Position numbers and translations under genes: made by a program | The notes under the pieces: generated by a model | What the model was told of the DNA's origin: nothing | Databases searched by the model: none | What the model saw: the letters and a program-made list of their open reading frames with translations, nothing else | Shown: piece after piece, positions 5,207 to 54,921 of the stretch | Numbering within the stretch: position 1 is the first letter of the stretch | Layout of the letters: each line of letters opens with the position of its first letter | Source of the DNA: Roseomonas nitratireducens | GTDB lineage: Bacteria > Pseudomonadota > Alphaproteobacteria > Acetobacterales > Acetobacteraceae | DNA: 64,000 nt | Direction of reading: 5' to 3' | NCBI RefSeq assembly: GCF_017813355.1 | Contig: NZ_JAGIYZ010000001.1 | Coordinates: 372,001-436,000 of the forward strand

Positions 5207-5914
5207 TCACGGCCCCGGCCTCAGCACATAGCCGCGGTGGCGAATGGTCTGGATGAAGCGCGGCTCGCGCGGATCGGTCTCCACCTTCCGCCGCAGCCGC
5301 GTCACCTGCACGTCGATCGCGCGTTCGCCCGCTTCGGGCGTGCCGAGCGCGGTGCCGATCTCCTCCCGGCTCAGGATCTCCCCCGGCCGGCGGGCGAGCG
5401 CCTGCAGCAGCGAGGCCTCCCCGCCCGTCAGCCGCACGATGCCCTCCGGCCCGCGCAGCTCGGCGCGCTCCACGTCGAACCAGCGCGGGCCGAGCTGCAC
5501 CGGCACGCTCGGCGTGGCGGGGGCCGGCGCGGGGGCGGCGCGGCGGAGGATGGTGCGGATGCGCAGCTCCAGCTCCCGCGGGTCGAAGGGCTTGGCGAGG
5601 TAGTCGTCGACGCCCTGCTCGAAGCCCGCGATGCGGTCCTCCGGCGCGCCGCGCGCGGTCAGCATCAGGATCGGCACGGTGTTGCCCTCGGCGCGCAGCG
5701 ATTCCGTCAGCGACAGGCCTGATTCGCCGGGCATCATCACGTCCAGCACCAGCAGGTCGAACATCATGGACGCGATGGCGCGCCGCGCCGCGGCGGCGTC
5801 GGCGACCGCGGTGACGCGGAAGCCGTGCTCGGTGAGGAAGCGCTGCAGCAGGTCGCGCAGCCGCGCGTCGTCGTCGACGACCAGAAGATGCGCAGGTTCC
5901 ACAGTGCCGTTCAT
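5207..5914 (-). CDS. OmpR-family response regulator (PetR-like)
   Basis: 235 residues. The receiver domain occupies 8-118, with acidic triad VDDD (13-16), phosphoacceptor D58 in LVLDVMMP, T86 and K108 in YLAKPFDP. A winged-helix DNA-binding domain at about 135-233 has the OmpR-type ending [10 protein letters not shown]...[11 protein letters not shown]. It is a cytoplasmic transcription factor, presumably controlled by the downstream EnvZ-like kinase. The ATG at 5914 overlaps the stop of a short upstream ORF (ATGA) within a 20-bp triplication. The arrangement MarR-type gene then OmpR-type gene matches petP-petR of Rhodobacter, where PetR is required for cytochrome bc1 gene expression; no pet genes lie here. 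Confidence 0.9.
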
Positions 5915-5969
5915 CGGGCGGGTTCCCCATTCATCGGGCGGGTTCCCCTTTCATCGGGCGGGTTCGCCA
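5910..5969 (-). repeat. 20-bp triplication forming two chained micro-ORFs
   Basis: Three 20-base units begin at 5910, 5930 and 5950, each containing TTCATCGGGCGGGTTC. On the minus strand each carries GAACCCGCCCGATGA. The first copy read is the end of the MarR gene (residues GEPAR, stop). Its TGA overlaps an ATG that opens MKGEPAR-stop (5954-5931). That stop overlaps an ATG opening MNGEPAR-stop (5934-5911), and that stop overlaps the ATG of the response regulator (5914). So four reading frames are chained by three ATGA overlaps. This suggests reinitiation-based coupling; whether the micro-ORFs are translated is not known. Confidence 0.85.
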
Positions 5970-32584: not shown

Positions 32585-32728
32585 ATGTCAGGCGCGCTCC
32601 AGCGCCTCATTCCAGGCGTGCCCCCGCGGCTTACTCCAGGCGTGCGCCCGCGGGTCACTCCAGGCGCACTCCCGCAGCCTATTCCAGGCGCGCTCCGGCG
32701 CGTCATTCCAGGCGCGCATTCGCGCGAC
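32585..32728. repeat. 24-bp tandem array duplicating a gene's stop-codon end
   Basis: Six consecutive 24-base units start at 32585, 32609, 32633, 32657, 32681 and 32705, with core TCCAGGCG. Units 2 to 6 start ATTCCAGGCG or ACTCCAGGCG; unit 1 is the degenerate ATGTCAGGCG. The last unit lies inside the receptor gene: on the minus strand it encodes ARLE and its stop. Because 24 is a multiple of three, the next units are in frame and read RLE-stop again with TGA, TAG, TGA, TAA and (for the degenerate unit) TGA. The array therefore extends the gene end with serial in-frame stops. There are no spacers, so it is not CRISPR. Confidence 0.9.
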
Positions 32729-41217: not shown

Positions 41218-41300
<83 letters not shown>

Positions 41301-41309
41301 TCCCGCCGA

Positions 41310-41732
41310 TCAGAACCGGAAGTTCAGGCTTATCCCCGGCGCGGGCGCGTAGAACACCGGCGGCGGCGGCGCGTAGTACACGGGCGGCGGCGGCGCGTAG
41401 TAGACCGGCGGCGGCGGCCGGTAGTACCGCGGCGGCGGCGGCGCGTAGTAGTAGCCCGGCGGCGGGCCCCAATAGGGCGTCACATAGACCCCCGGCCCGC
41501 CATGGCGGCGCCAACGGCCGCGCCCGCCCTCGCCGCCCTCGCCCACCGGCAGCAGCGCGCCGCTCGACGTCTCGGGCACAACGAGGAAGGGGCTCGCCCC
41601 GGCGCGCGCGAGCGTCACGCCCTGGCCGCCATCCGCGAGCACCGCCGCCGGCATGGCGGGCGGCGCCGCTGCGGCGGGTAGCGCCACATGCGCCACGCCC
41701 AGCAGCACCGCGCTGATCGTCACCGGTCGCAT
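41310..41732 (-). CDS. Secreted Tyr/Pro-repeat protein
   Basis: 140 residues. A signal peptide (MRPVTISAVLLGVAHVALPAAAA) is followed by a short domain with FLVVPETSSGALLPVGEGG. The C-terminal half repeats (V/Y)YYAPPPP- and YYRPPPP-like units (about 98-130), ending APGISLNFRF. The repeat count can vary by slippage, and the DNA repeats in step (41346-41450). Similar YAPPPPVYY proteins are common in alphaproteobacterial envelopes with unknown roles. A GGAGG site precedes the ATG. Its 3' end lies ten bases from tRNA-Leu(TAA), convergent. Confidence 0.75.
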   Translation of the reverse strand: MRPVTISAVLLGVAHVALPAAAAPPAMPAAVLADGGQGVTLARAGASPFLVVPETSSGALLPVGEGGEGGRGRWRRHGGPGVYVTPYWGPPPGYYYAPPPPRYYRPPPPVYYAPPPPVYYAPPPPVFYAPAPGISLNFRF

Positions 41733-41758
41733 CGCATGCCCTCCTGGCCCCCGGCCCA

Positions 41759-41800
41759 TTCCGGCCGCATGAAGAATCGTTCCGGCCGCATGAAGAATCG
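41759..41800. repeat. 21-bp tandem duplication
   Basis: TTCCGGCCGCATGAAGAATCG occurs twice without a gap at 41759-41779 and 41780-41800. It sits between the divergent Tyr/Pro-repeat gene and the PaaK-like gene, in the shared promoter region. A third example of short tandem duplication next to a gene end in this window. Confidence 0.75.
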
Positions 41801-41860
41801 TCCACAAACTGCCACGGAGCCGTGGCGATGTCATGGCAAGGGGGATGGAGACACCTCGCC

Positions 41861-43271: not shown

Positions 43272-43844
43272 TCAGCCCGCCGTCGCCTTCGCCATCTCGG
43301 CAGGGCGTTCCAGCTCGAACCACACGCAGGCTTCCTCCCGCCCGCGCGCGGGGCACCAGATGCGGCCTTCCCCGAGCGAGGACATGCCCAGCAGCCGCGC
43401 GATGCCGAGAGAGGCGTCGTTGTCCCCCTGCACCGCCGCGCGCAGCGTCGCCACGTCCAGCAGCGCGAAGGCGTGCCGCACCGCGGCCGGCGCCGCCTCG
43501 CTCATGTAGCCATGGCCCTGGAAGGCATCGCCGAGCCAGTAGGTGACCAGCGCCACGCTGTCCTCCCCCGGCGCGCGGGAGATGCTGATCCAGCCCATCA
43601 CCACGCCGTCGGACAGGCGTTCGATGACGAAGGGCAGGGAGCGCCGCTGCGCCGCGGCCACGCGCACGCCGGCGATGCGGTCGGCGGCCATCGGCACGGT
43701 GTAGGGATAGGGCCAGGAGGCGAGGCGGCGGCTGATCGCCTCGTTCATCAGGCCGGAAATGGCGGCCGCGTCACGTTCCTCGGCGCAACGCAGCCGCAGG
43801 CGATCGGTCTCTATGGCAGGAAGCGACTGCGGCAGCACAACCAT
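43272..43844 (-). CDS. GNAT acetyltransferase, RimJ/RimL type
   Basis: 190 residues. It opens with IETDRLRLRCAEERDAAAISGLMN, the RimJ/RimL N-terminal pattern, then VALVTYWLGDAFQGHGYMSEAAPAAVRHAF (acetyl-CoA binding, Q-G-x-G) and AAVQGDNDASLGIARLLGM. It may acetylate a protein N-terminus or a small molecule. It lies 24 bases upstream of nothing co-oriented except the aldehyde dehydrogenase end, whose transcription would run into it. Confidence 0.88.
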   Translation of the reverse strand: MVVLPQSLPAIETDRLRLRCAEERDAAAISGLMNEAISRRLASWPYPYTVPMAADRIAGVRVAAAQRRSLPFVIERLSDGVVMGWISISRAPGEDSVALVTYWLGDAFQGHGYMSEAAPAAVRHAFALLDVATLRAAVQGDNDASLGIARLLGMSSLGEGRIWCPARGREEACVWFELERPAEMAKATAG

Positions 43845-43868: not shown

Positions 43869-45209
43869 TCAGCGCACCAGCATCCTTAACACACGTTCTG
43901 CAACCGGTGCATGTGGTCGGTCGAAGATTCGCGCGAGAGAAAAGCGTCCGTGACGCACCCGTGATCTCAAATTCGAGAAAGTCCGGAAGCCGTCCTCCCC
44001 ATGCGTCCGGCCGATGCCGGAGGCGCCGACGCCGCCGAAGGCGAGGTCGGGGAAGGCCACATGCTCCACGCAGCGCCCGGTCACGATGGCACCCGACCGC
44101 GTGCCGGCGGCGACCGCCGCTTCCTCGGCTGACGTCGCGCCGAACAGATAGATGGCGAGCGGGGCGGGGCGTGCCGCGACCCAGGCCAGCGCGGCCGGCA
44201 GGTCGGCCGCCTCGACGACCGGCAGGATGGGGCCGAAGACTTCCTCCCGCAGCAGGGGCGATCCCTCCGGCGCCTCGGCCAGCGCGACGGCGCGGCGGCG
44301 GCCGGGCCCGTCGGCGCCGAGCGGCGTGAGCTTCGCGCCCTCCGCCAGGCGGTCGAGCCGCGCGGCCTGCGACGGGTTCGCCAGCGCGGTCTCCGGCGGC
44401 GCGACATCCGCGGCGCGGCAGGCGGCCTCGAAGGCGGCGCGCGCATGGCCCACCAGCAGCACCGTGTCGGGGGCGACGCAGGTCTGCCCGGCATTGAGCG
44501 ACTTGCCGATCAGGATGTCGTGCGCGGCGCGCGCGAGATCCGCCCCCGGCAGTACGATGGCCGGGCATTTGCCGCCCAGTTCCAGCGTGACGGGCACGAG
44601 GTTGGCGGCGGCGGCGAGCGCGACGCGCCGCCCGGTCTCGGTCCCCCCCGTGAACACGAGGTGATCCCACGGCTGCGCCGCGAAATCCGCCGCGACCGAT
44701 GCGTCGCCCGTGACGCAGCGCGCCATGTCCGCCCCGAGCGCGGCATCGAGCAGCGCCGCGATTTCCGCCGCGCAGCGCGGCGCGTGTTCCGACGGCTTCA
44801 CCACCACGCGGTTGCCGGCCGCGAGCGCGTCGACCGCCGGCACCAGGGTGAGCTGCACCGGGTAGTTCCACGGCCCGATGATGCCGACGACCCCTTTCGG
44901 CACGGGTTCCGTCCAGGCCCGCGCGGGCAGGAAGGGGAAGGGCACGTGCGCGGCGCGCGGCCGCGCCCAGCGGGCGACGCGACGGCGGGCGTGGATCGCG
45001 CAATCGGCCACCAGCAGCACGTCGGCGAGCAGCGTTTCCGCCCGCGACCTCCCGCCGAAATCGGCCGCGGCCGCGTCGGCGATGGCATGCGCGCGGCGCT
45101 TCACCTCGGCGGCGAGGCGCGCAAGCAGTTCCCGCCGCCGCGCGATGCCGGGCGCGCCGTCGCGCGCCTCGGCGGCGCGCAGGGCGGCGAGGGCCTCGGC
45201 GGGGGTCAT
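43869..45209 (-). CDS. Aldehyde dehydrogenase of the C30 carotenoid cluster
   Basis: 446 residues, short for the superfamily and like the coniferyl/fatty-aldehyde type. N115 (GPWNYPVQ), E210 (TLELGGK) and C244 (NAGQTCVAPD) are the catalytic residues. In staphylococci and Methylomonas an enzyme of this type (AldH/CrtNc) oxidises diaponeurosporenal to the acid. Here it is the last gene of the cluster, its ATG overlapping the hpnE stop, which supports the same role. The C-terminal RFSLARIFDRPHAP may be a membrane-association tail. Confidence 0.85.
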   Translation of the reverse strand: MTPAEALAALRAAEARDGAPGIARRRELLARLAAEVKRRAHAIADAAAADFGGRSRAETLLADVLLVADCAIHARRRVARWARPRAAHVPFPFLPARAWTEPVPKGVVGIIGPWNYPVQLTLVPAVDALAAGNRVVVKPSEHAPRCAAEIAALLDAALGADMARCVTGDASVAADFAAQPWDHLVFTGGTETGRRVALAAAANLVPVTLELGGKCPAIVLPGADLARAAHDILIGKSLNAGQTCVAPDTVLLVGHARAAFEAACRAADVAPPETALANPSQAARLDRLAEGAKLTPLGADGPGRRRAVALAEAPEGSPLLREEVFGPILPVVEAADLPAALAWVAARPAPLAIYLFGATSAEEAAVAAGTRSGAIVTGRCVEHVAFPDLAFGGVGASGIGRTHGEDGFRTFSNLRSRVRHGRFSLARIFDRPHAPVAERVLRMLVR

Positions 45210-46435
45210 GCGCGGCCCCGCGGCAGCAGCGCCTTCGCGGCCGCCTCGCCCGACCGCGCCGCGGCCTCGATCGTCGCGGGCAGGCCGTGCCAGGTCCAGT
45301 CGCCGGCCAAGGCGAGGTTCTTCAGCGGCCGGCGCGGCGCATGCGGCGGGATGCCGACGCCGTGGCGCGGCGTGGCGCGGCGTTCCTTCACCGCGCGGCA
45401 GGGGGGCGTTGCCTCGGGCCAGTCGCCGGCCAGGGCAAAGGCCTGCGCGGCGCGGCGGATTTCCGCCCAGGCGCGGGGGGCGAGGGTCTCCACGGCTTCC
45501 TCCGTTTCCGCATCCGCGGCGCTGACCGTCACGCTCACGCCCGAAGGCCGCGCCAGCACCCATTGGCACAGGCCGCCGACGAGCCCGACGAAGCGCACCG
45601 GGCCTTCGCCCGCGCGCGCGAAATGCAGGTTCAGGATCGGCGCGTGGCGTTCGGGCACCTTCAGCCCGGTGATCAGCCGCGCGGCTTCCCAGGGCGGCAG
45701 GGCGAGGACCACCTGGTCCTGCTCGGCGAGCGCGACCGTCTCCTCCCCCAGGTGCAGCGCCGTGGCACGGCCATCGGCCTGCGTCATCGCGCGCAGCCGG
45801 CTGCCGAAGCGGATCGTCGCACCCGCGGCTTCCAGCGTGGCGAGCGCGGGGGCGATCATGTCCGGCCCCAGCCCGTCCCGCGCGACCAGCAGCCGCGCCG
45901 CGCCCGCCCCGCCGAGCCGCCGCAGCACCTGCCCCAGCCGCGCGGAGGAGGCTTCGGCCACCGGCGTGTTCAGCGCGGCGACGGTCAGCGGCTCCACGAA
46001 GCCGCGCAGCAATGCGGGGTGCTTCGCCAGCGCCTCGGCCACCGGCCGGTCGGTCAGCGGCAGCGCCATGCCGAGCAGCGCGAGCAGCCCCCCCGCGGTC
46101 AGCCCCGGCGGGCGCAGCGCCGGGTCGCGCCAGGCGAGCGGCGAGGCCGCGATGCGCCGTGCCGCTCCGTCCGCGAGGTCGAGCACCGGCAGCCCCCCGG
46201 GTTCCGGTTCCACCCAGCCCGCGCGCGCGCCGATCGCGTCCAGGAAGCGCAGCGCGGCGTGGTTCGCGCCCATCAGCGCATGGGTGCCGTTGTCCGTCCC
46301 GTCGGGCAGGGCGCGGCAGCGGCCGCCGGCGACGGGCGTCGCCTCGTGCAGCGTCACGGCGCAGCCGCCGCGCGCGAGCGCCAGGGCGGCGACGAGCCCC
46401 GCCACGCCCGCGCCGACCACATGCGCCCGCGCCAT
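45206..46435 (-). CDS. hpnE: Hydroxysqualene dehydroxylase HpnE
   Basis: 409-residue FAD-dependent amine-oxidase-like protein. The dinucleotide fold GAGVAGLVAALALARGG (8-24) and the ATPVAGGRCRALPD motif that follows are typical, and the C-terminal NLALAGDWTWHGLPATIEAAARSG is the flavin-binding end. HpnE reduces hydroxysqualene to squalene, the third step of the HpnCDE route. It is two bases downstream of the HpnCD fusion gene and overlaps the aldehyde dehydrogenase gene. The sequence also resembles phytoene desaturases, but HpnC and HpnD as neighbours decide the call. Confidence 0.85.
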   Translation of the reverse strand: MARAHVVGAGVAGLVAALALARGGCAVTLHEATPVAGGRCRALPDGTDNGTHALMGANHAALRFLDAIGARAGWVEPEPGGLPVLDLADGAARRIAASPLAWRDPALRPPGLTAGGLLALLGMALPLTDRPVAEALAKHPALLRGFVEPLTVAALNTPVAEASSARLGQVLRRLGGAGAARLLVARDGLGPDMIAPALATLEAAGATIRFGSRLRAMTQADGRATALHLGEETVALAEQDQVVLALPPWEAARLITGLKVPERHAPILNLHFARAGEGPVRFVGLVGGLCQWVLARPSGVSVTVSAADAETEEAVETLAPRAWAEIRRAAQAFALAGDWPEATPPCRAVKERRATPRHGVGIPPHAPRRPLKNLALAGDWTWHGLPATIEAAARSGEAAAKALLPRGRA

Positions 46436-46437
46436 GG

Positions 46438-48063
46438 TCAGCGCGCCGCCACGGGCGCGAGGCGCAGCGCATAGGCCGCCATGCGCGCCTTCTCCCCCGC
46501 CGTCAGCCGCGGCCGGGCGCGCGGCGGGCCGAAGCCGCGCGCGACCAGCCGGTCGAAGATGCGGCGATAGGCCCACATCATGATGCGCGCGGGCAGCAGC
46601 GCCGGGTTGTCGAAGGCGGCGAGTTCCGCCTCCGCCCGCGCGAAGCCCTGTTCGGCCTGCGCCGCCAGCACGCGCGCGGCCGCCGCGAGGCCGGGTGCCG
46701 CCAGCATCGCCGCGGGCGGGCCTTCCGCCACGCCATGGGCGGCGAGCAGGTCGCGCGGCACGTAGACGCGGTCGCGCGCCGCGTCCTCGTCCATGTCGCG
46801 CAGGATGTTCACCAGCTGCAGCGTGCGGCCGAGGGCGAGGCCGAAATCCGCCGCTTCCGGCGCGCCGAAGATGCGCACCGCCATCGCCCCGACGCTGCCC
46901 GCGACCCGCCGGCAATACAGGTCGAGCGCCGCGCCGTCGGCGATGCGCAGCGCGGGCGCGGCATCCGTCTCCATGCCCGCGATCATCGCCTCGCATTCCT
47001 CGACCGGCAGCGCGTAGCGGTCGCGCGCGCGGGCGAGCTCGCGCGACAGCGCGCAGTCGGGCCGCGCGAGCTTGCCGCGCCAGTCCTGCAGGAAGCGGCG
47101 CTTCTCCGCTTCCGGCATGGCGCCGTCGGCGATGTCGTCCACCGCCCGGCAGAAGGCATAGACGGCCCAGAGCGCGCGCCGCCGGTCGCCGCGCAGCGCC
47201 GACATCCCCCGCGCGAAGGAGGACCCGGCGGCGGCGACGCGCGCGCGCACCAGCGCGGCATCGGATGGGCCGCGGAAGGGCGCGCCGGCGAAGGCGCGGG
47301 CGAAATCCGCGCGGCCCAGCGCCACGCGCCCGAGCACGGGGTCGGCCGCGCGCAGCCGCGCGAGCAGCCGCCGCGCCAGCGCGATGGTCACCGTCGATTC
47401 CATCGCCAGCCGCGCCGAGCGCAGCAGCCGCGGCAGCGCCGCCGCCGCGTCGAGCCGTTCCTCCACGCGGTCCAGCGCGGCGTCGAGCACGGCGCGGCGC
47501 TCGGCGTTGGCGGGGTCGAAGAAGGCGGCCTCGCCGCCCGCCAGCGCCATCCACGCTTCGGGGAGGTAGATGCGGTCGATCGCCTCGCGGTCGGGGACCA
47601 GGTCCTGCAGGTGGTTGAGGATCTGCAGGGCGGTGCAGAGCGCATCCGCGGACTCGACCGCGCCGGGGGCGGCTTCGCCATGCAGGCGCAGCAGCATCCG
47701 CCCGACGGGGTTGGCGGAGGCGGCGCAATAGGCTTCCAGCGCCGCCCAGTCGGCGTAGCGGCGCTGCGTCGCATCCTGGCGGAAGGCGGCGAGCATCGCG
47801 CGCGCTTCCTCCGTGCCGCAGCCGCTGTCGTGGATCGGGCGGGCGGCGGGGTCGGCGGTGGCGGGGTCGTCGAGCGCGCGTTCGAGGGCTGCGAGACGGT
47901 CGAGCTTTTCGGCGGGCGTCAGCGATGACGAATCCGCGACGTCATCCGCCGTGCGCACGAAGCGGTAGAAGCCGAGCACCTTCGGGCGCAGCGCGCGCGA
48001 CATCAGCAGCGAGGCGACGGGGAAGTTCTCGCTGGTGGAATCGCGGGTGGGGGTGTCGGTCAT
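46438..48063 (-). CDS. Fused HpnC-HpnD squalene-pathway synthase
   Basis: 541 residues made of two trans-isoprenyl diphosphate synthase-like domains. The N-terminal half (1-265) is HpnC-like: SENFPVASLL (11-20), first Asp motif D40-D41-x-x-D44 in FVRTADDVADS, second at HLQDLVPDRE (D154, D158) and YLP. The C-terminal half (270-541) is HpnD-like: SSFARGMSALRGDRRRALWAVYAFCRAVDD (D309-D310-x-x-D313) and NILRDMDEDAARDRVYVP (D423, D427). HpnD makes presqualene diphosphate from two farnesyl diphosphates and HpnC converts it to hydroxysqualene. In most genomes these are separate genes. Both catalytic motifs are intact in both halves. No joint or frameshift is visible. Confidence 0.88.
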   Translation of the reverse strand: MTDTPTRDSTSENFPVASLLMSRALRPKVLGFYRFVRTADDVADSSSLTPAEKLDRLAALERALDDPATADPAARPIHDSGCGTEEARAMLAAFRQDATQRRYADWAALEAYCAASANPVGRMLLRLHGEAAPGAVESADALCTALQILNHLQDLVPDREAIDRIYLPEAWMALAGGEAAFFDPANAERRAVLDAALDRVEERLDAAAALPRLLRSARLAMESTVTIALARRLLARLRAADPVLGRVALGRADFARAFAGAPFRGPSDAALVRARVAAAGSSFARGMSALRGDRRRALWAVYAFCRAVDDIADGAMPEAEKRRFLQDWRGKLARPDCALSRELARARDRYALPVEECEAMIAGMETDAAPALRIADGAALDLYCRRVAGSVGAMAVRIFGAPEAADFGLALGRTLQLVNILRDMDEDAARDRVYVPRDLLAAHGVAEGPPAAMLAAPGLAAAARVLAAQAEQGFARAEAELAAFDNPALLPARIMMWAYRRIFDRLVARGFGPPRARPRLTAGEKARMAAYALRLAPVAAR

Positions 48064-48157: not shown

Positions 48158-49261
48158 TCACGTCGCCTCGGGCGCGGCATAGGCACGGCCCTTCCAGCCT
48201 TCCTTCCGGCCCATCAGGAAGCGGACGAGGGCGGTCCACTGGATGGCCAGCGCGACCAGCACGGCGACGGGATGCAGCAGGATCGTCCAGGACGGTTCGC
48301 GCGCGCGGCGCGTGATCGCCATGCGCAGGCCGAACACCATGGCGAGCGCGATCGCCGCCTGCCAGGCGGGCAGCAGGAAGAAGGGCCACAGATGCGCGCC
48401 CGCCAGCACCACCGTCCAGACCGGCAGGCCGACCGGCGTCGCCATGCCTTCGCGCGCGTTCTTGAGGAAGCCGCGCCAGGCCTCGGCGAAATCCCGGTAC
48501 ATGCGGCAGGTCGCCACGCCGCTGCCCTCCACGATCTCGGTCCGGTGGCCGCGCGCGCGCAGCAGCCGCGCGAACTTCAGCCCGTCATGCAGCGTGGTGC
48601 GCAGCGCGCCGTGCCCGCCCACGGCTTCATAGGCGCCACGCTCGAACATCATCATCTGGCCGCAGCCGGCGGCGAAGCCGGGATGGCGCGTGAAGGCGCG
48701 CCCGCCGCCCGGCAGGTAGCCCACCAGCAGCAGGTTGATCATCGGCACCGTCACGCCTTCGCCCCAGGTGAGCATGACCTGGCGCGGCACGCCGCTGACG
48801 AGGCCGAGGCGCTGGCGCGCCATGTGGCCCGACAGCGCGGCGGCGGCGCGCGGTTCCAGCCGCACATCGGCGTCGATGAACAGGAAATGCGTCCCCCGCG
48901 CGGCTTCGGCCAGCCGCGCGCAGGCGTGCATCTTGCCAGACCAGCCTTCGGGCAGCGCCGGCGCCTCGACCAGCCGCACGCGCGGATCGGCCGCGGCGAT
49001 GCGGCGTACGATGTCGGGCGTGCCGTCGGTCGAGCCATCGTCCATCACGACGACCTCGATCGCCACGCCCTGCTGCGCGAGCGCGGCGGCGAGGCAGCCC
49101 TCGATGTTCGTGGCCTCGTCGCGCGCGGGGATCAGGATGGACACCAGCGCGCCGTCCGGCACGGCGCCCTGCGGCCCGCGCACCAGGCGCAGGTTGATCG
49201 CGCCGAGCGCGGCCGGGAAGATGGCCAGCGCGAAGGCGATCCAGGCATAGTCGAGGCTCAC
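48158..49261 (-). CDS. Family 2 glycosyltransferase, putative carotenoid glycosylation
   Basis: 367 residues from a GTG that overlaps the acyltransferase stop (GTGA). An N-terminal helix, then the GT2 domain: VSILIPARDEATNIEGCL (40-57), VVMDDGSTDGTPDIV (71-85), LPEGWSGKMHACARLA, and DAD at 130-132 (FLFIDADVRLEP). Two to three C-terminal helices follow. Similarity in layout to CrtQ-type enzymes, which glucosylate diaponeurosporenoate, together with the neighbours, suggests esterification of a C30 carotenoid acid with a sugar. A hopanoid role (HpnB-like) is the alternative, but no cyclase is present. Confidence 0.82.
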   Translation of the reverse strand: MSLDYAWIAFALAIFPAALGAINLRLVRGPQGAVPDGALVSILIPARDEATNIEGCLAAALAQQGVAIEVVVMDDGSTDGTPDIVRRIAAADPRVRLVEAPALPEGWSGKMHACARLAEAARGTHFLFIDADVRLEPRAAAALSGHMARQRLGLVSGVPRQVMLTWGEGVTVPMINLLLVGYLPGGGRAFTRHPGFAAGCGQMMMFERGAYEAVGGHGALRTTLHDGLKFARLLRARGHRTEIVEGSGVATCRMYRDFAEAWRGFLKNAREGMATPVGLPVWTVVLAGAHLWPFFLLPAWQAAIALAMVFGLRMAITRRAREPSWTILLHPVAVLVALAIQWTALVRFLMGRKEGWKGRAYAAPEAT

Positions 49262-50073
49262 CGTGCGTCTCCCGTCTGATGGTCGTGGCGGGGGTCGAAG
49301 CGTTCTCCGCGCATCGTTGCCCGCAGGCGGCGCCACAATTGATAGACGCCGCCCATGCCTTCCTTGCCCTGCACCAGCGTCTCGAACCTGGCCGGATCGC
49401 GGGAGATCGCATCTTCCGTGAGCCGGTCGCAGACCGCGCCGAGCGCGGCGGACAGATGGGCCGTGCGTGCATCCCGTTCCAGGTCCAGCAGCGTCGCCGC
49501 CGGGATCGGCTCGCCGAAGGCGACGAGCATCTCGGCCTTGCGCTCCGACCAGAAGGGGTAGTCGAACGCGAGCGGGACGAAATGCGCGCCCGGCGCCATC
49601 TCCGGCAGGCGCGTCATGCCCGGCGCGATGGGGATGGGCCGCTCCCGCGGGTCGCAGAAGCGTCCCGGGGCGTTCATCCACAGGATGTGCGAGGGGTCCT
49701 TCAGCACATGCTCGGCCGTGCGCAGGAAGGCGACGGTGCCGCGCGACGAGCCGGTCTCGATCCCGAAGACGCCGAGCCGCCGCATGAAGGCGTATTTGTC
49801 GAGCGCCCATTCCGCCATGGGCGTGAACAGCGGCCGGTCCTTCAGCAGCCGGCGGTACAGCAGCATGAAGGCCACGCCGTCCCACCAGGACGGGTGGTTG
49901 GCGAAGATCACCGCCGGGGCGCCGCGCGGCACCGCCGGCAGGCCCCATTTCGCGATGCGCACCGCGCGCATGTGCGTGCGCGTGAAGCGCGTGAACATGA
50001 AGTTGAAGAAGTCGAGGTGACGCTCCGAGCGGAGCGTCACCGGGTCACGGTGCGGCTTGGACGCCCGCGCCAT
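49258..50073 (-). CDS. PlsC-type acyltransferase of the carotenoid cluster
   Basis: 271 residues. The HX4D motif is NHPSWWD (59-65; H60, D65), followed by an FFxEGTR-equivalent replaced by HILWMNAPGRFCDP and then the PLAFDYPFWSERKAEMLV block. Members of this family acylate glycerophosphates; in C30-carotenoid clusters an acyltransferase finishes the glycosyl ester with a fatty acid. Its ATG shares one base with the upstream desaturase stop (TAATG). Membrane-associated. Confidence 0.82.
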   Translation of the reverse strand: MARASKPHRDPVTLRSERHLDFFNFMFTRFTRTHMRAVRIAKWGLPAVPRGAPAVIFANHPSWWDGVAFMLLYRRLLKDRPLFTPMAEWALDKYAFMRRLGVFGIETGSSRGTVAFLRTAEHVLKDPSHILWMNAPGRFCDPRERPIPIAPGMTRLPEMAPGAHFVPLAFDYPFWSERKAEMLVAFGEPIPAATLLDLERDARTAHLSAALGAVCDRLTEDAISRDPARFETLVQGKEGMGGVYQLWRRLRATMRGERFDPRHDHQTGDAR

Positions 50074-51653
50074 TATTCGGCGGCGAGCAGCGCGTCCCGC
50101 AGCCCCGCCCGTTCCGCCGCGGGGGACATGCCGCGGCCGCCGAGGTCGCGGTCCATCGCATCCGCCGCGATCCAGCCCGACATCATCACCATCGGCATGC
50201 CCGGGCCCGGATGGGCCGCGCCGCCGGCGAGGTACAGGCCCTTGATCGCCTTCGACCGGTTGGACGGCTTGAAGGCGCCGAGGAAGGCGCCGTGCGAGGC
50301 GAGGCCGTAGATCGCCCCTTCCAGCACCTTGTAGCGGTTGTGGATGTCGACCGGCGTCAGCGCGCGCTCGACCACGATCCGCTCCTCGATGTCCTCGAGC
50401 CCCGCGGTGCGCTTCAGCTTGTCGAGGATCTTCTGCCGGTAGGGCGCGAACATCTTCGACCAGTCATGGCCCGGGCGCAGATGCGGGGTGTGCACCAGCA
50501 CGTACAGCGCTTCCCCCCCTTCCGGCGCGACGGTGTCGTCGGAGCAGGACGGCGCGCACAGATAGGCGGTCGGGTCGGGCGCGGGCTCGCCCTTCTTGTA
50601 GATGCTGTCGAACTCCTCCTCCGCGTCGCGGGAGAAGACGAAGCAGTGATGCGCGAGGTGCTCGTAGCGCTTCTTCAGCCCGAGATAGAGCACCACGCCC
50701 GAGCAGGCCGGCTGGTAGCCGCGCTTCTGCATCGCCTTGGCGGGCGGGCCCTTCACCAGTTCGGTGTAGGTGCGGATCGCGTCCATATTGGAGATCAGCG
50801 CGTCGCAGGCGATGCGCTCGCCATTCGCGGTCACGCTGCGCACCGCGCCGTTCGTGATCTCGATGTCGGTCACCTCGCTGTCGGTGCGCAGGTCCGCGCC
50901 GAGGTCGCGGGCGAGCTTCGCCAGCCCCTCCGCCACGGCGCGGGTGCCGCCGACCGGATACCAGACGCCCTCGCTCGCCTGCATGTCGCCGATGCCGCAG
51001 AGCACGGCGGGCGCGAGATAGGGGTTCGAGCCGACATACTGGGTGAAGTGGTCCAGCATCTGCGCGAGCCGTTCGTCCGGCACATGGCCGCGGATCACCT
51101 TCGCGACGGTGCGGCCCATGCGCAGCGCGAGGATGTCGCGCAGCACCTCCGGCTTGAAGTTGTCGGTGAAGGACATCGTGTCGCCGATGCCCTCGACCGG
51201 CTTCCAGAAGAAGAAGCGCTCGCTGATCTCGTGCAGGTGGCGGGAGACTTCCTGGAACTTGCGGTAGCCCTCGCCGTTCGACTTGCCCGGCGCGAAGGCG
51301 TCCATGGCCTTCGCCATGGTGTCCACCTTCTCCATCAGGTCGATGCGCGTGTTGTCGTCGAAGAAGCAGCGCCACTGCGGGTCGAGCCGGATCAGCGGCA
51401 GCTCGTCCTGCTGCACGCGGTTCGCCTCGGCGAAGATCCGGCGCAGCACGCGCGGCACGGTCAGGATGGTCGGGCCCATGTCGAAGCGGAAGCGCCCCGG
51501 CCCGTCCGGGTTGTCGAGATGCAGGACGGCCGCCTTGCCGCCGAGCCAGGGGTTGCGCTCCAGTAGCGTCACCTGGTGCCCGCGCGCCTGCGCGACGGCG
51601 GCGGCGGCGAGCCCGCCGAGCCCGCTGCCGATGACGACGACGTTCGCACCCAT
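50073..51653 (-). CDS. CrtN/CrtI-family desaturase or oxidase
   Basis: 526 residues. The FAD motif is IGSGLGGLAAAAVAQARG (8-25), followed by LLERNPWLGGKAAVL, the substrate-side FRFDMGPTILTVP (56-68) and the C-terminal GLYLAGGAAHPGPGMPMVMMSGWIAADAM. A GGAGGA site lies seven bases before the ATG. In C30 pathways one CrtN-like enzyme dehydrogenates the backbone and a second (CrtNb/CrtP type) oxidises the terminal methyl to an aldehyde. Which role this copy has cannot be told from motifs. Confidence 0.87.
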   Translation of the reverse strand: MGANVVVIGSGLGGLAAAAVAQARGHQVTLLERNPWLGGKAAVLHLDNPDGPGRFRFDMGPTILTVPRVLRRIFAEANRVQQDELPLIRLDPQWRCFFDDNTRIDLMEKVDTMAKAMDAFAPGKSNGEGYRKFQEVSRHLHEISERFFFWKPVEGIGDTMSFTDNFKPEVLRDILALRMGRTVAKVIRGHVPDERLAQMLDHFTQYVGSNPYLAPAVLCGIGDMQASEGVWYPVGGTRAVAEGLAKLARDLGADLRTDSEVTDIEITNGAVRSVTANGERIACDALISNMDAIRTYTELVKGPPAKAMQKRGYQPACSGVVLYLGLKKRYEHLAHHCFVFSRDAEEEFDSIYKKGEPAPDPTAYLCAPSCSDDTVAPEGGEALYVLVHTPHLRPGHDWSKMFAPYRQKILDKLKRTAGLEDIEERIVVERALTPVDIHNRYKVLEGAIYGLASHGAFLGAFKPSNRSKAIKGLYLAGGAAHPGPGMPMVMMSGWIAADAMDRDLGGRGMSPAAERAGLRDALLAAE

Positions 51654-51667
51654 ATCGAATTCCTCCT

Positions 51668-53251
51668 TCAGTCGCCCATCGCGGGCTGCGCGGCGCCAAT
51701 CCTGTCGCCGCTTTCGGCCATCGGCCGCATGCCGAGGTCCTCCATCAGCAATTTGGCGCTGATGCGGGCCCCTTCGTAGATCACCGGCAGGCCGCTGCCC
51801 GGATGGGTGCCGCCGCCGACGAGATAGACGCCCTCCGCCTTGCCGAAGCGGTTCTGCGGGCGGAAATGCATCATCTGCCGCACATTGTGCGCCAGGTTGA
51901 AGGTCGCCCCGTAGCCCACCGCGTAGTCGTCCTGCCAGCCCTGCGGCGTGACGACCTTCTCGTAGCGGATGCGGCTCTCGATGTCAGTCAGGCCGAGCGC
52001 CTTCAGCCGGTCGAGCGCCAGGCGCCGGTAGCGCGGCGCTTCCTTGGCCCAGTCCTGCCCGCCATGCAGGTTCGGCACCGGCACCAGCATGTACAGCGTC
52101 GAATGCCCCGCCGGCGCGAGCGAGGGGTCGGTGCCCGCCGCGGCCTGGACGTAAAGCGAGGGATTGTCCGGGATCACCCCGCCCTCGATCTGCTCGAGGT
52201 TGCGCTGGTAGTCCTCGGCCAGCAGCACGGTGTGGTGCGCGAGGTCCGGCAGCGGGCCCTCGAGGCCCAGGTAGAGCATGAAGGTCGAGCAGGAATAGCG
52301 CGCCTTCTCGATCTTCTGGTCGGTCCATTGCGGGCGCAGCGCCTCGGGCATCAGGCCCGGGATGGCGTGGGCGAAGTCGGCGTTGACCACGACCGCGTCG
52401 GCGGCGTGGCGCGTGCCGTCCACCTCGACGCCCGACGCGCGCTTGCCTTCGAAGGCGATGCGCTCGACCTTCTCGCCCAGGCGGATCTCGACGCCGAGCC
52501 GGGTCGCGACGCGCGCCATGGCTTCCGACACCGCGCCGCAGCCGCCGCGCGGGTGGAAGATGCCGTGCTCGTATTCCAGGAAGGACAGGATCGAGAACAT
52601 GCTCGGGCAGCGGAACGGGCTCATGCCCAGGTATTTCGACTGGAAGGTGAAGGCGAGCCGCGTGCGCGGGTCGCTGAAATGCCGCTTCAGGTCGGTGTCC
52701 AGCGAGGCCCAGGGGCGCAGGTAGCGCAGCCCGTTCATCACCTCCGGCGCCAGGTAGGTCATCAGCCCGTGGAAGGGCCGTTCAAGCACGGGGCGGAAGG
52801 CTTCGAGCTTGACCCGGTTGTCCTCCATGAACGACCGCAGCCCCTTCGCGTCGGCCGGGTTGATCTTGGCGATCTCGGCTTCCATCCGCCCGATGTCGGG
52901 GGATGCGTCGATGGTGAGCGGGTTCTTCCCCTCGAACACCAGCCGGTATTGCGGGTCGAGCCGGATGAGGTCGACCTCGTCGTCGAGCGAGGCGCCGCAG
53001 CTCTCGAAGATCTCCCGCAGGATGCGGGGATAGAGGAAGAAGGTCGGCCCGATGTCGAAGCGGTAGCCGTCCTCGGTCGAGATGGTGCGGGTGCGCCCGC
53101 CCACCGCGGTTTCCCGCTCGAAGACGGTCACGCGCGCGCCCTGGGCGGCGAGGATCATGGCGGAGGCGAGGCCGCCCGGGCCGGCGCCGATGACGGCGAC
53201 GCGCGGGCGGGTGCGGGCGATGGCTGGCAGAGGGGCGTTCATCCGGCTCAT
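51668..53251 (-). CDS. CrtN-family desaturase
   Basis: 527 residues and the first gene of the cluster. FAD motif [19 protein letters not shown] (20-38), then ERETAVGGRTRTISTEDGYRFDIGPTFFLYP and the C-terminal GVYLVGGGTHPGSGLPVIYEGARISAKLL, all of the phytoene-dehydrogenase type. Internal FRCPSMFSILSFLEYEHGIFHPRGGCGAVSEA matches CrtN-type enzymes that use C30 substrates. It may desaturate squalene or dehydrosqualene. A second desaturase follows 14 bases downstream. The upstream 59 bases are AT-richer and probably carry the cluster promoter, but no boxes were assigned. Confidence 0.87.
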   Translation of the reverse strand: MSRMNAPLPAIARTRPRVAVIGAGPGGLASAMILAAQGARVTVFERETAVGGRTRTISTEDGYRFDIGPTFFLYPRILREIFESCGASLDDEVDLIRLDPQYRLVFEGKNPLTIDASPDIGRMEAEIAKINPADAKGLRSFMEDNRVKLEAFRPVLERPFHGLMTYLAPEVMNGLRYLRPWASLDTDLKRHFSDPRTRLAFTFQSKYLGMSPFRCPSMFSILSFLEYEHGIFHPRGGCGAVSEAMARVATRLGVEIRLGEKVERIAFEGKRASGVEVDGTRHAADAVVVNADFAHAIPGLMPEALRPQWTDQKIEKARYSCSTFMLYLGLEGPLPDLAHHTVLLAEDYQRNLEQIEGGVIPDNPSLYVQAAAGTDPSLAPAGHSTLYMLVPVPNLHGGQDWAKEAPRYRRLALDRLKALGLTDIESRIRYEKVVTPQGWQDDYAVGYGATFNLAHNVRQMMHFRPQNRFGKAEGVYLVGGGTHPGSGLPVIYEGARISAKLLMEDLGMRPMAESGDRIGAAQPAMGD

Positions 53252-53310: not shown

Positions 53311-54921
53311 TCATGCCGCGAGGGCCCCTTCGATCTCGGCAAAGCGCCCGGTGGCGCGGGGAAGCAGGCGGCGGAGGTAGAAATCCGCGGCCGGACCGTA
53401 GGCGGAAGGATCCTCGGCGGCGGCGCGGGCGAGCATCCAGCCGCCCAGCACCCAGCCCGCCGCGTCCAGGTATGCGACGGCGACCGACTGGCCGGCATCG
53501 GCATCCCGGCCCTGGGCGGCCAGCACCGTTCCGGTCGCGGCTTCCAGCGCGGCGGCGGCGGCGCGCAGCCGCGCATCGGGCACGCGCTTCACCTCATCCA
53601 GCAGGGCGCGCATCTCCGCCCCGCCATCCTTGGCCAGCTTGCGCACCAGCAGGTCGATCGCCTGGATGCCGTTGGTGCCTTCGTAGATTGGGGCGATGCG
53701 GGCGTCCCGCAGCACCTGGGCGGCGCCGGCATCCTCGACGAAGCCCATGCCGCCATGCACCTGGATGCCGGTCGACGCCGTCTCGACGCCCCGGTCCGTG
53801 CCCCAGGCCTTGAGGATCGGCGTCAGCAGCGCGAGCCGGTTCTGCGCCGCGGCGTCGCCCAGCAGCGCGTGGCGGTCGACGCAGGCGGCGGTCTCCAGCG
53901 CCAGCAGCCGCGCGGCGAGCGTGACGCTGCGCATCTCCATCAGCATGCGCGCGACGTCCGGGTGGTCGGCGATGGGCCGCCCACCCTGCACGCGCATCGC
54001 GGCATAGGCTTCCGCGAGCCGCAGCGCGGCGGCGCCATGCGCCACCCCCTGCGTGCCGACGCCCAGGCGGGCGTTGTTCATCATGGCGAACATCGCCGGC
54101 AGGCCGCGATGCGGCTCGCCCACCAGCTCCGCCTCCGCGCCCTCGAACAGCATGACGCAGGTGGGGCTCGCATGGATGCCCATCTTGCGCTCGATGCCGC
54201 CGCAGCGCAGCGCGTTGCGCGTGCCGTCCGCCTTCACCTTGGTGGTCGCGAACAGGCTGATGCCCTTCGAGCCCGGCGGCGCGTCCGGCAGCCTTGCGAG
54301 CACGAGGTAGAGGATGTTCCCGGTGCAGTCGTGCTCGCCCCAGGTGATATAGATTTTTTGCCCGTGCAGCGCGTACTTGCCCTCGCCCAGCGGTTCCGCC
54401 CGTGCGCGCAGCACGCCGAGGTCGCTGCCGGCATTGGGCTCCGTCAGGCACATCGCGCCGGTCCATTCGCCGCTGACCATGGGCGGCAGCCAGCGCGCCG
54501 CCTGGTCGGGTGTGGCGTGATGCACCAGGCAGTCGATCGCGCCCGCGGTCAGCAGCGGGCCCAGCATGAACGACGTGTCGGCCGCCATGCCGAGCTCCGT
54601 CATCGCGGTCCAGAGCGAGGCGGGCAGCCCTTGTCCGCCATGCTCGACGGGGGCGGAAAGCGACTGCCAGCCGCCTTCCATCCACTTGGCGTAGGCGTCG
54701 CGGTAGGGCGTGGTGACGGTGCCGTTGGCGTAGACCGCGCCCTGCCGGTCGGCGGCCTGGGCGTTCGGTTGCAGCACCTCCCGGCAGAAGCGGTCGGCTT
54801 CCTCGACGATCTGGGCGATGTCCGCGGCCGAGAGCGGCGCGCCGGCGCGGTCGGTCAGCGCGGGCAGGCCGACGATGCGCGTCAGGCCGAAGATCAGGTC
54901 GGTGGCGGCGGTGCTGCTCAT
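53311..54921 (-). CDS. Acyl-CoA dehydrogenase
   Basis: 536 residues, a little shorter than the 590-residue DmdC-like group it resembles. The FAD/acyl-CoA signature is GEWTGAMCLTEPNAGSDLGVLRARA, with CGGIERKMGIHASPTCVM and HGGMGFVEDAGAAQVLRDARIAPIYEGTNGIQAIDLL, where the Glu of IYEGTNGI is the catalytic base. A C-terminal helical extension of about 120 residues follows. It oxidises an acyl-CoA to the enoyl-CoA; chain length unknown. Its ATG overlaps the upstream flavoprotein stop. Confidence 0.92.
   Translation of the reverse strand: MSSTAATDLIFGLTRIVGLPALTDRAGAPLSAADIAQIVEEADRFCREVLQPNAQAADRQGAVYANGTVTTPYRDAYAKWMEGGWQSLSAPVEHGGQGLPASLWTAMTELGMAADTSFMLGPLLTAGAIDCLVHHATPDQAARWLPPMVSGEWTGAMCLTEPNAGSDLGVLRARAEPLGEGKYALHGQKIYITWGEHDCTGNILYLVLARLPDAPPGSKGISLFATTKVKADGTRNALRCGGIERKMGIHASPTCVMLFEGAEAELVGEPHRGLPAMFAMMNNARLGVGTQGVAHGAAALRLAEAYAAMRVQGGRPIADHPDVARMLMEMRSVTLAARLLALETAACVDRHALLGDAAAQNRLALLTPILKAWGTDRGVETASTGIQVHGGMGFVEDAGAAQVLRDARIAPIYEGTNGIQAIDLLVRKLAKDGGAEMRALLDEVKRVPDARLRAAAAALEAATGTVLAAQGRDADAGQSVAVAYLDAAGWVLGGWMLARAAAEDPSAYGPAADFYLRRLLPRATGRFAEIEGALAA

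Follow-up and report, generated by a model that had tools for sequence, protein, structure and literature searches.

A fused HpnC–HpnD protein in a probable C30-carotenoid gene cassette of Roseomonas nitratireducens

The genes hpnC, hpnD and hpnE are classical hopanoid-operon genes, and the products of the first two usually act as separate enzymes in squalene synthesis. A 64,000-nucleotide stretch of the Roseomonas nitratireducens genome, hereafter the window (contig NZ_JAGIYZ010000001.1, positions 372,001 to 436,000), encodes the first two as a single 541-residue protein, which raises the questions of what the joined protein does, which pathway it serves and why its halves are joined. We conclude, with a probability of roughly 0.88, that this protein, HpnCD, is a bifunctional squalene-pathway enzyme that would take farnesyl diphosphate (FPP) to hydroxysqualene for a C30 carotenoid rather than for hopanoids, and that it was born by the merger of operon genes; catalysis, pigment formation and any advantage of being fused are what we infer from genes and genomes.

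Results

One minus-strand frame carries the fusion

hpnCD (46438–48063) runs on the minus strand from an ATG at 48063 to a TGA at 46438, through 541 codons without an internal stop, and the ATG of hpnE follows almost directly 3′ of its stop (TGACCATGG). The uninterrupted frame described at this position by the sequence-only reading is therefore real, but its strand has to be corrected to minus, as the plus strand at 46438–48063 does not carry the gene. The HpnC part comes first and the HpnD part second, with no stop between them, as expected of a fused HpnCD.

The fused gene is present in 30 of 34 congeneric genomes, nearly always at full length and with 73–87% identity; two copies end at contig ends. 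So wide a conservation among congeners, with a dN/dS of only 0.12–0.31 in each half, is far from what a chance open frame would show. An assembly artefact was also considered and is ruled out by the 30 congeners with the fusion together with a complete Microvirga plasmid that carries it. Among named relatives, the protein is 84% identical in Neoroseomonas alkaliterrae, 85% in Roseomonas rosulenta and 66% in R. harenae, identities that place the window in the Neoroseomonas/Roseomonas group of Acetobacteraceae; this protein query of the named-genome collection returned close relatives only, with five useful loci.

The two halves are distinct and both are maintained

The HpnC half (residues 1–265; 47268–48063, minus strand) and the HpnD half (residues 270–541; 46441–47256, minus strand) contain domains spanning residues ~8–259 and ~276–530, respectively, separated by a junction of about 16–20 residues. 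Scored against NCBIfam profiles, the first half reaches 227.6 bits with TIGR03464 (HpnC) versus 88.1 with TIGR03465 (HpnD), and the C-terminal half 228.7 bits with TIGR03465 versus 112.6 with TIGR03464, margins of 139 and 116 bits. The assignment of the halves to HpnC and HpnD, in that order, which had been proposed from the letters of the window, is thus borne out by the profiles. Each half alone falls below its curated cut-off (227.6 versus 250.45 bits for TIGR03464; 228.7 versus 278.6 for TIGR03465), and although the whole protein exceeds both (328 bits for HpnC, 304.4 for HpnD), that score sums the two halves. We regard the sub-threshold scores as a weak point rather than an exclusion, since the cut-offs were set for whole single-domain proteins.

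The Asp-rich motifs are D40-D41-x-x-D44 and D154-x-x-x-D158 in the HpnC half (contexts FVRTADDVAD and NHLQDLVPD) and D309-D310-x-x-D313 and D423-x-x-x-D427 in the HpnD half (FCRAVDDIAD and NILRDMDED). All ten aspartates are in place, as had been claimed, and are invariant across 86 aligned rows (42 fused proteins and 44 split relatives), bar a gap at D423/D427 in one fused relative whose contig ends there. The dN/dS values given above were obtained against five congeners; over the short junction they are 0.23–0.47. Both halves are under purifying selection. An AlphaFold2 model built from six sequences only predicts two domains, each complete and all-helical (mean pLDDT 84.6, pTM 0.81), and its Foldseek matches are CrtM-type dehydrosqualene synthases and the HpnC structure 4HD1.

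These data bear on the possibility that the protein is a duplicated phytoene-synthase-like enzyme, or that one half is a dead regulatory domain. Both halves do fall in one Pfam family, SQS_PSY, which is what a duplication would give. However, each half prefers its own profile over the other one by more than 110 bits, the outcome opposite to that named beforehand as fatal to an HpnC–HpnD fusion; every catalytic aspartate is retained and dN/dS is low on both sides; and trees of each half with split HpnC and HpnD give the same picture. A duplication or a dead half is scarcely credible, and we reject it on the profile scores, motifs and dN/dS; the earlier view that neither half is dead agrees with the kept aspartates and with selection on both halves.

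We also asked whether the HpnD half might be translated on its own from a start codon inside the frame. In the window, a GTG precedes the HpnD domain by four codons; this codon is absent from many relatives, however, and no ribosome-binding motif was found before the HpnD half in any of 76 fused sequences. Such a start, neither conserved nor preceded by a binding motif, is unlikely.

Proposed reactions of the fused protein

According to published work (Pan et al. 2015, via PMC6439483), HpnD condenses two FPP to presqualene diphosphate (PSPP), HpnC turns PSPP into hydroxysqualene and HpnE yields squalene. Given these reactions, the fused protein should perform the first two steps and pass hydroxysqualene to HpnE. 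The C-terminal HpnD domain would make PSPP, the N-terminal HpnC domain would convert it to hydroxysqualene, and HpnE, encoded next door, would reduce this to squalene; the squalene would go to CrtN and CrtP, which together with AldH, the glycosyltransferase and the acyltransferase could build a glycosylated, acylated C30 carotenoid. The enzymes of Zymomonas mobilis and Rhodopseudomonas palustris described in that account belong to the same domain families, and the same three reactions are expected here, but in those species the first two steps reside on two polypeptides and here on one (PMC6439483). The fusion probably originated when adjacent hpnC and hpnD operon genes merged, and its plain effect would be that the two enzymes are made at a fixed 1:1 ratio.

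hpnCD lies in a probable C30-carotenoid cassette

The genes around hpnCD are all on the minus strand, in the order crtN–crtP–acyltransferase–glycosyltransferase–hpnCD–hpnE–aldH. At the upstream end is an acyl-CoA dehydrogenase-like gene (53311–54921, minus; PF00441/PF02771), a conserved neighbour that precedes crtN in almost every cluster of the Roseomonas group; we know of no part for it in carotenoid synthesis. The CrtN-like desaturase of the crtI family (51668–53251, minus; TIGR02734, 524 bits), for which squalene is the proposed substrate, lies 5.0–5.5 kb from hpnCD in 26 of 29 genomes. The CrtP-like oxidase/desaturase, also of the crtI family (50073–51653, minus; TIGR02734, 392 bits), shares 70–79% identity with its counterparts in syntenic clusters from other genera. 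Next come a PlsC-type acyltransferase (49258–50073, minus; PF01553) and a CruG/HpnB-like family-2 glycosyltransferase (48158–49261, minus), counterparts by position and order of META1p3664 and META1p3663, respectively, of Methylobacterium (M.) extorquens. Downstream of hpnCD, the hydroxysqualene dehydroxylase gene hpnE (45206–46435, minus) is syntenic in relatives, and its product scores below the curated TIGR03467 cut-off (254.8 versus 283.05 bits). An aldehyde dehydrogenase gene, aldH (43869–45209, minus; PF00171), overlaps the end of hpnE and is conserved in the cassette; its product is a candidate for the step from diapolycopenedial to the dioic acid of the C30 carotenoid. Homologues of aldH lie near plasmid cassettes of Microvirga and Palleronia, with 51% and 44% identity. 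A GNAT-family acetyltransferase gene (43272–43844, minus; PF13302) marks the cluster end.

The cassette order is conserved in most of the Roseomonas-group fused clade; in three of its loci (L145, L146 and L150) crt genes are not nearby. N. alkaliterrae DSM 25895 (L065) shares the cluster of the window. With hpnCDE, CrtN/CrtP-type desaturases and glycosyl- and acyltransferase genes together, the locus has the make-up of a C30 carotenoid cluster. A characterized parallel is M. extorquens AM1, in which gene deletion has connected the cassette with a C30 carotenoid that is both glycosylated and acylated (PMC10448405). There, too, CrtN, CrtP, a glycosyltransferase and an acyltransferase draw on squalene from HpnCDE, and glycosyltransferase, acyltransferase and CrtP stand in identical order (PMC10448405). 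In contrast to the present locus, however, hpnCDE of AM1 is unfused, adjoins the hopene cyclase gene and lies at a distance from the crt genes. For the acid step, the AM1 work identified no aldehyde dehydrogenase, whereas aldH is part of the cassette here (PMC10448405).

Hopanoid synthesis is very improbable in this genome

As hpnC, hpnD and hpnE are known from hopanoid operons, the fused protein might simply serve hopanoid synthesis. In the source genome (99.5% complete) and in 22 congeners, no squalene-hopene cyclase (TIGR01507) was found, so the source lacks a cyclase both in the cluster and elsewhere, and the neighbours of hpnCD are carotenoid genes. hpnCD is also the sole HpnC/HpnD found in the genome; there is one other homologue, which is CrtB-like. 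None of the ~20 kb stretches read around hpnCD of the fused clade contains a hopene cyclase, whereas the split hpnC/hpnD of other genomes often lie beside one (16 of 30 stretches read). Across genomes, and with the caution that these counts ignore relatedness, the cyclase is missing in 8 of 32 fused-clade genomes versus 2 of 107 split-only ones, and a CrtN homologue is present in 30 of 32 versus 21 of 107. A point in favour of a hopanoid role is that 24 of the 32 family members with the fused clade encode a hopene cyclase elsewhere in the genome; an exclusively carotenoid role therefore fails for the clade as a whole. For the source genome itself we consider a hopanoid role very improbable, and the fused protein very probably feeds a predicted C30 carotenoid pigment.

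Two genomes of the genus g311 (G532 and G467, loci L145 and L146) keep a carotenoid-clade fused HpnCD beside hpnE, are without a CrtN homologue and have a hopene cyclase elsewhere in the genome; apparently, these genomes have lost the cassette and use the fused gene for hopanoids instead.

Fused and split forms have interchanged repeatedly

Of 150 Acetobacteraceae genomes sampled, 35 have a fused gene (32 in the Roseomonas-group clade and three with other fused versions), 107 have split hpnC and hpnD only, and eight had nothing that reached the threshold. In the trees, the Roseomonas-group proteins share a clade (support 100/96) with the fused proteins of another family, f15; the split, hopanoid-linked proteins of the Acetobacteraceae themselves fall elsewhere. 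The half-wise trees with unfused homologues that the sequence-only reading had called for agree with each other and with the joint tree of both halves, placing HpnCD with other fused proteins. Two histories were rejected: that the gene was inherited vertically from the split hopanoid copy of its family, which keeps the family together (AU p = 0.001), and that all fused proteins go back to one origin (AU p about 1e-114).

A careful tree, which left out the long-branch fused sequences of G153, G326 and f31 as unsafely placed, requires at least six changes between fused and split states within Alphaproteobacteria, all forced by well-supported branches. Change counts alone do not tell fusion from fission, but fused groups nest inside split ones (family f46, G426 and G452/G523), which makes repeated fusion the simple reading. 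In f46, fused and split forms occur in neighbouring genera (L127/L128 versus L167/L168). The domains of split pairs are mostly 80–140 bases apart, the genes often overlap, and in three cases (L040, L104 and L105) the two are in the same frame, parted by just one stop codon; with such spacing and overlap, a small indel or the loss of a stop would be enough to fuse them. The HpnC–HpnD order is always that of the operon and not that of the reactions, in which HpnD acts first. Junction length is nearly fixed inside the Roseomonas-group clade and ranges from 17 to 38 residues across clades.

Two side observations concern related genes. A third squalene/phytoene-synthase-like gene, divergently oriented and scoring 103–172 bits with the HpnD model, adjoins hpnC/hpnD in f46 and f31 (L127, L128, L133, L134, L141, L167 and L168), next to fused and split forms alike. 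In G513 (L153), from the same Acetobacteraceae family, the split hpnC and hpnD group with those of f60 and f152, which suggests another horizontal replacement.

Discussion

The HpnCD fusion is not new. A 2017 survey by Sinninghe Damste et al. (PMC5462960) had already described fused hpnCD genes from Rhodospirillum centenum, specific actinobacteria and acidobacteria of subdivision 2. With that report covering several phyla, 35 of 150 Acetobacteraceae carrying a fusion and repeated origin in Alphaproteobacteria, the view that the fusion is unusual was overstated; what we describe is a fairly ordinary example of a widespread arrangement, set among carotenoid genes instead of hopanoid genes. This setting and the lack of a hopene cyclase had escaped the sequence-only reading. 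Compared by published description, the earlier fusions (including those of Actinopolyspora and Blastococcus) are likewise one merged hpnC and hpnD gene of about double size, but they were treated within the hopanoid pathway, whereas here the gene sits in a C30-carotenoid cassette and the genome has no hopene cyclase (PMC5462960). In the open papers searched, fused HpnCD appears just as a remark in that one hopanoid survey, and no reports of C30 carotenoids from Roseomonas or Acetobacteraceae were found among them. The present case places the fused protein in a C30-carotenoid pathway, with several fusions inside Alphaproteobacteria.

A similar locus is on a Microvirga ossetica plasmid (NZ_CP016619.1), where CrtN, CrtP, acyltransferase, glycosyltransferase, fused HpnCD and HpnE are encoded in the same order. 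Its HpnCD (WP_162299269.1), annotated merely as a squalene/phytoene synthase family protein, is the sister of the Roseomonas-group clade (support 100/99); the differences are that the Microvirga cassette is plasmid-borne and has an extra methyltransferase gene and ispH. A Palleronia plasmid bears the same kind of cassette, but with hpnC and hpnD split. The two plasmids suggest that the cassette travels between orders, whether or not its hpnC and hpnD are fused.

Why were the genes joined? We lean towards a nearly neutral accident within an operon, maintained only because it secures co-expression, with the domains working as if separate, an account that is compatible with a bifunctional enzyme. 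Close relatives run the same pathway with split genes, as in f46; the Palleronia cassette does so too; and the split neighbours sharing one frame stand a single stop away from fusion. Against pure accident, the fusion arose independently several times and has been retained over many genera, which hints that it brings a benefit or, at the least, costs nothing. One such benefit would be channelling of PSPP from the HpnD to the HpnC active site, the fusion being kept for that reason. Six or more fusion or fission events point to a joined form that is either tolerated or favoured; the junction is almost constant within the Roseomonas-group clade, and the predicted whole-chain pTM hints at a defined packing of the domains. 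However, the close spacing and overlap of split genes make fusion easy without selection, the domain order never departs from operon order, and the junctions vary between clades, so retention for channelling seems unlikely. Doubtful, too, is a broader proposal that joins fusion to mobility: a self-contained, horizontally moving C30-carotenoid cassette with its own squalene supply, in which repeated fusion would have been selected to retain PSPP and commit FPP to squalene. Natural fused and split pairs in close relatives (within f46, and between the Roseomonas group and other Acetobacteraceae) are well suited to direct tests of PSPP channelling.

The locus carries two warnings for annotation: hpnCDE alone does not mean hopanoids, and fused genes may be labelled only as encoding a squalene/phytoene synthase family protein.

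Elsewhere in the window, we note a gene for a short Pro/Tyr-rich protein (41310–41834, minus strand) with 24-bp tandem repeats encoding YYAPPPP units, which adjoins tRNA-Leu(taa) at 41218–41300. Short tandem repeats also occur at 5910–5969 (three copies of 20 bp) and at 32589–32717 (24/48-bp units).
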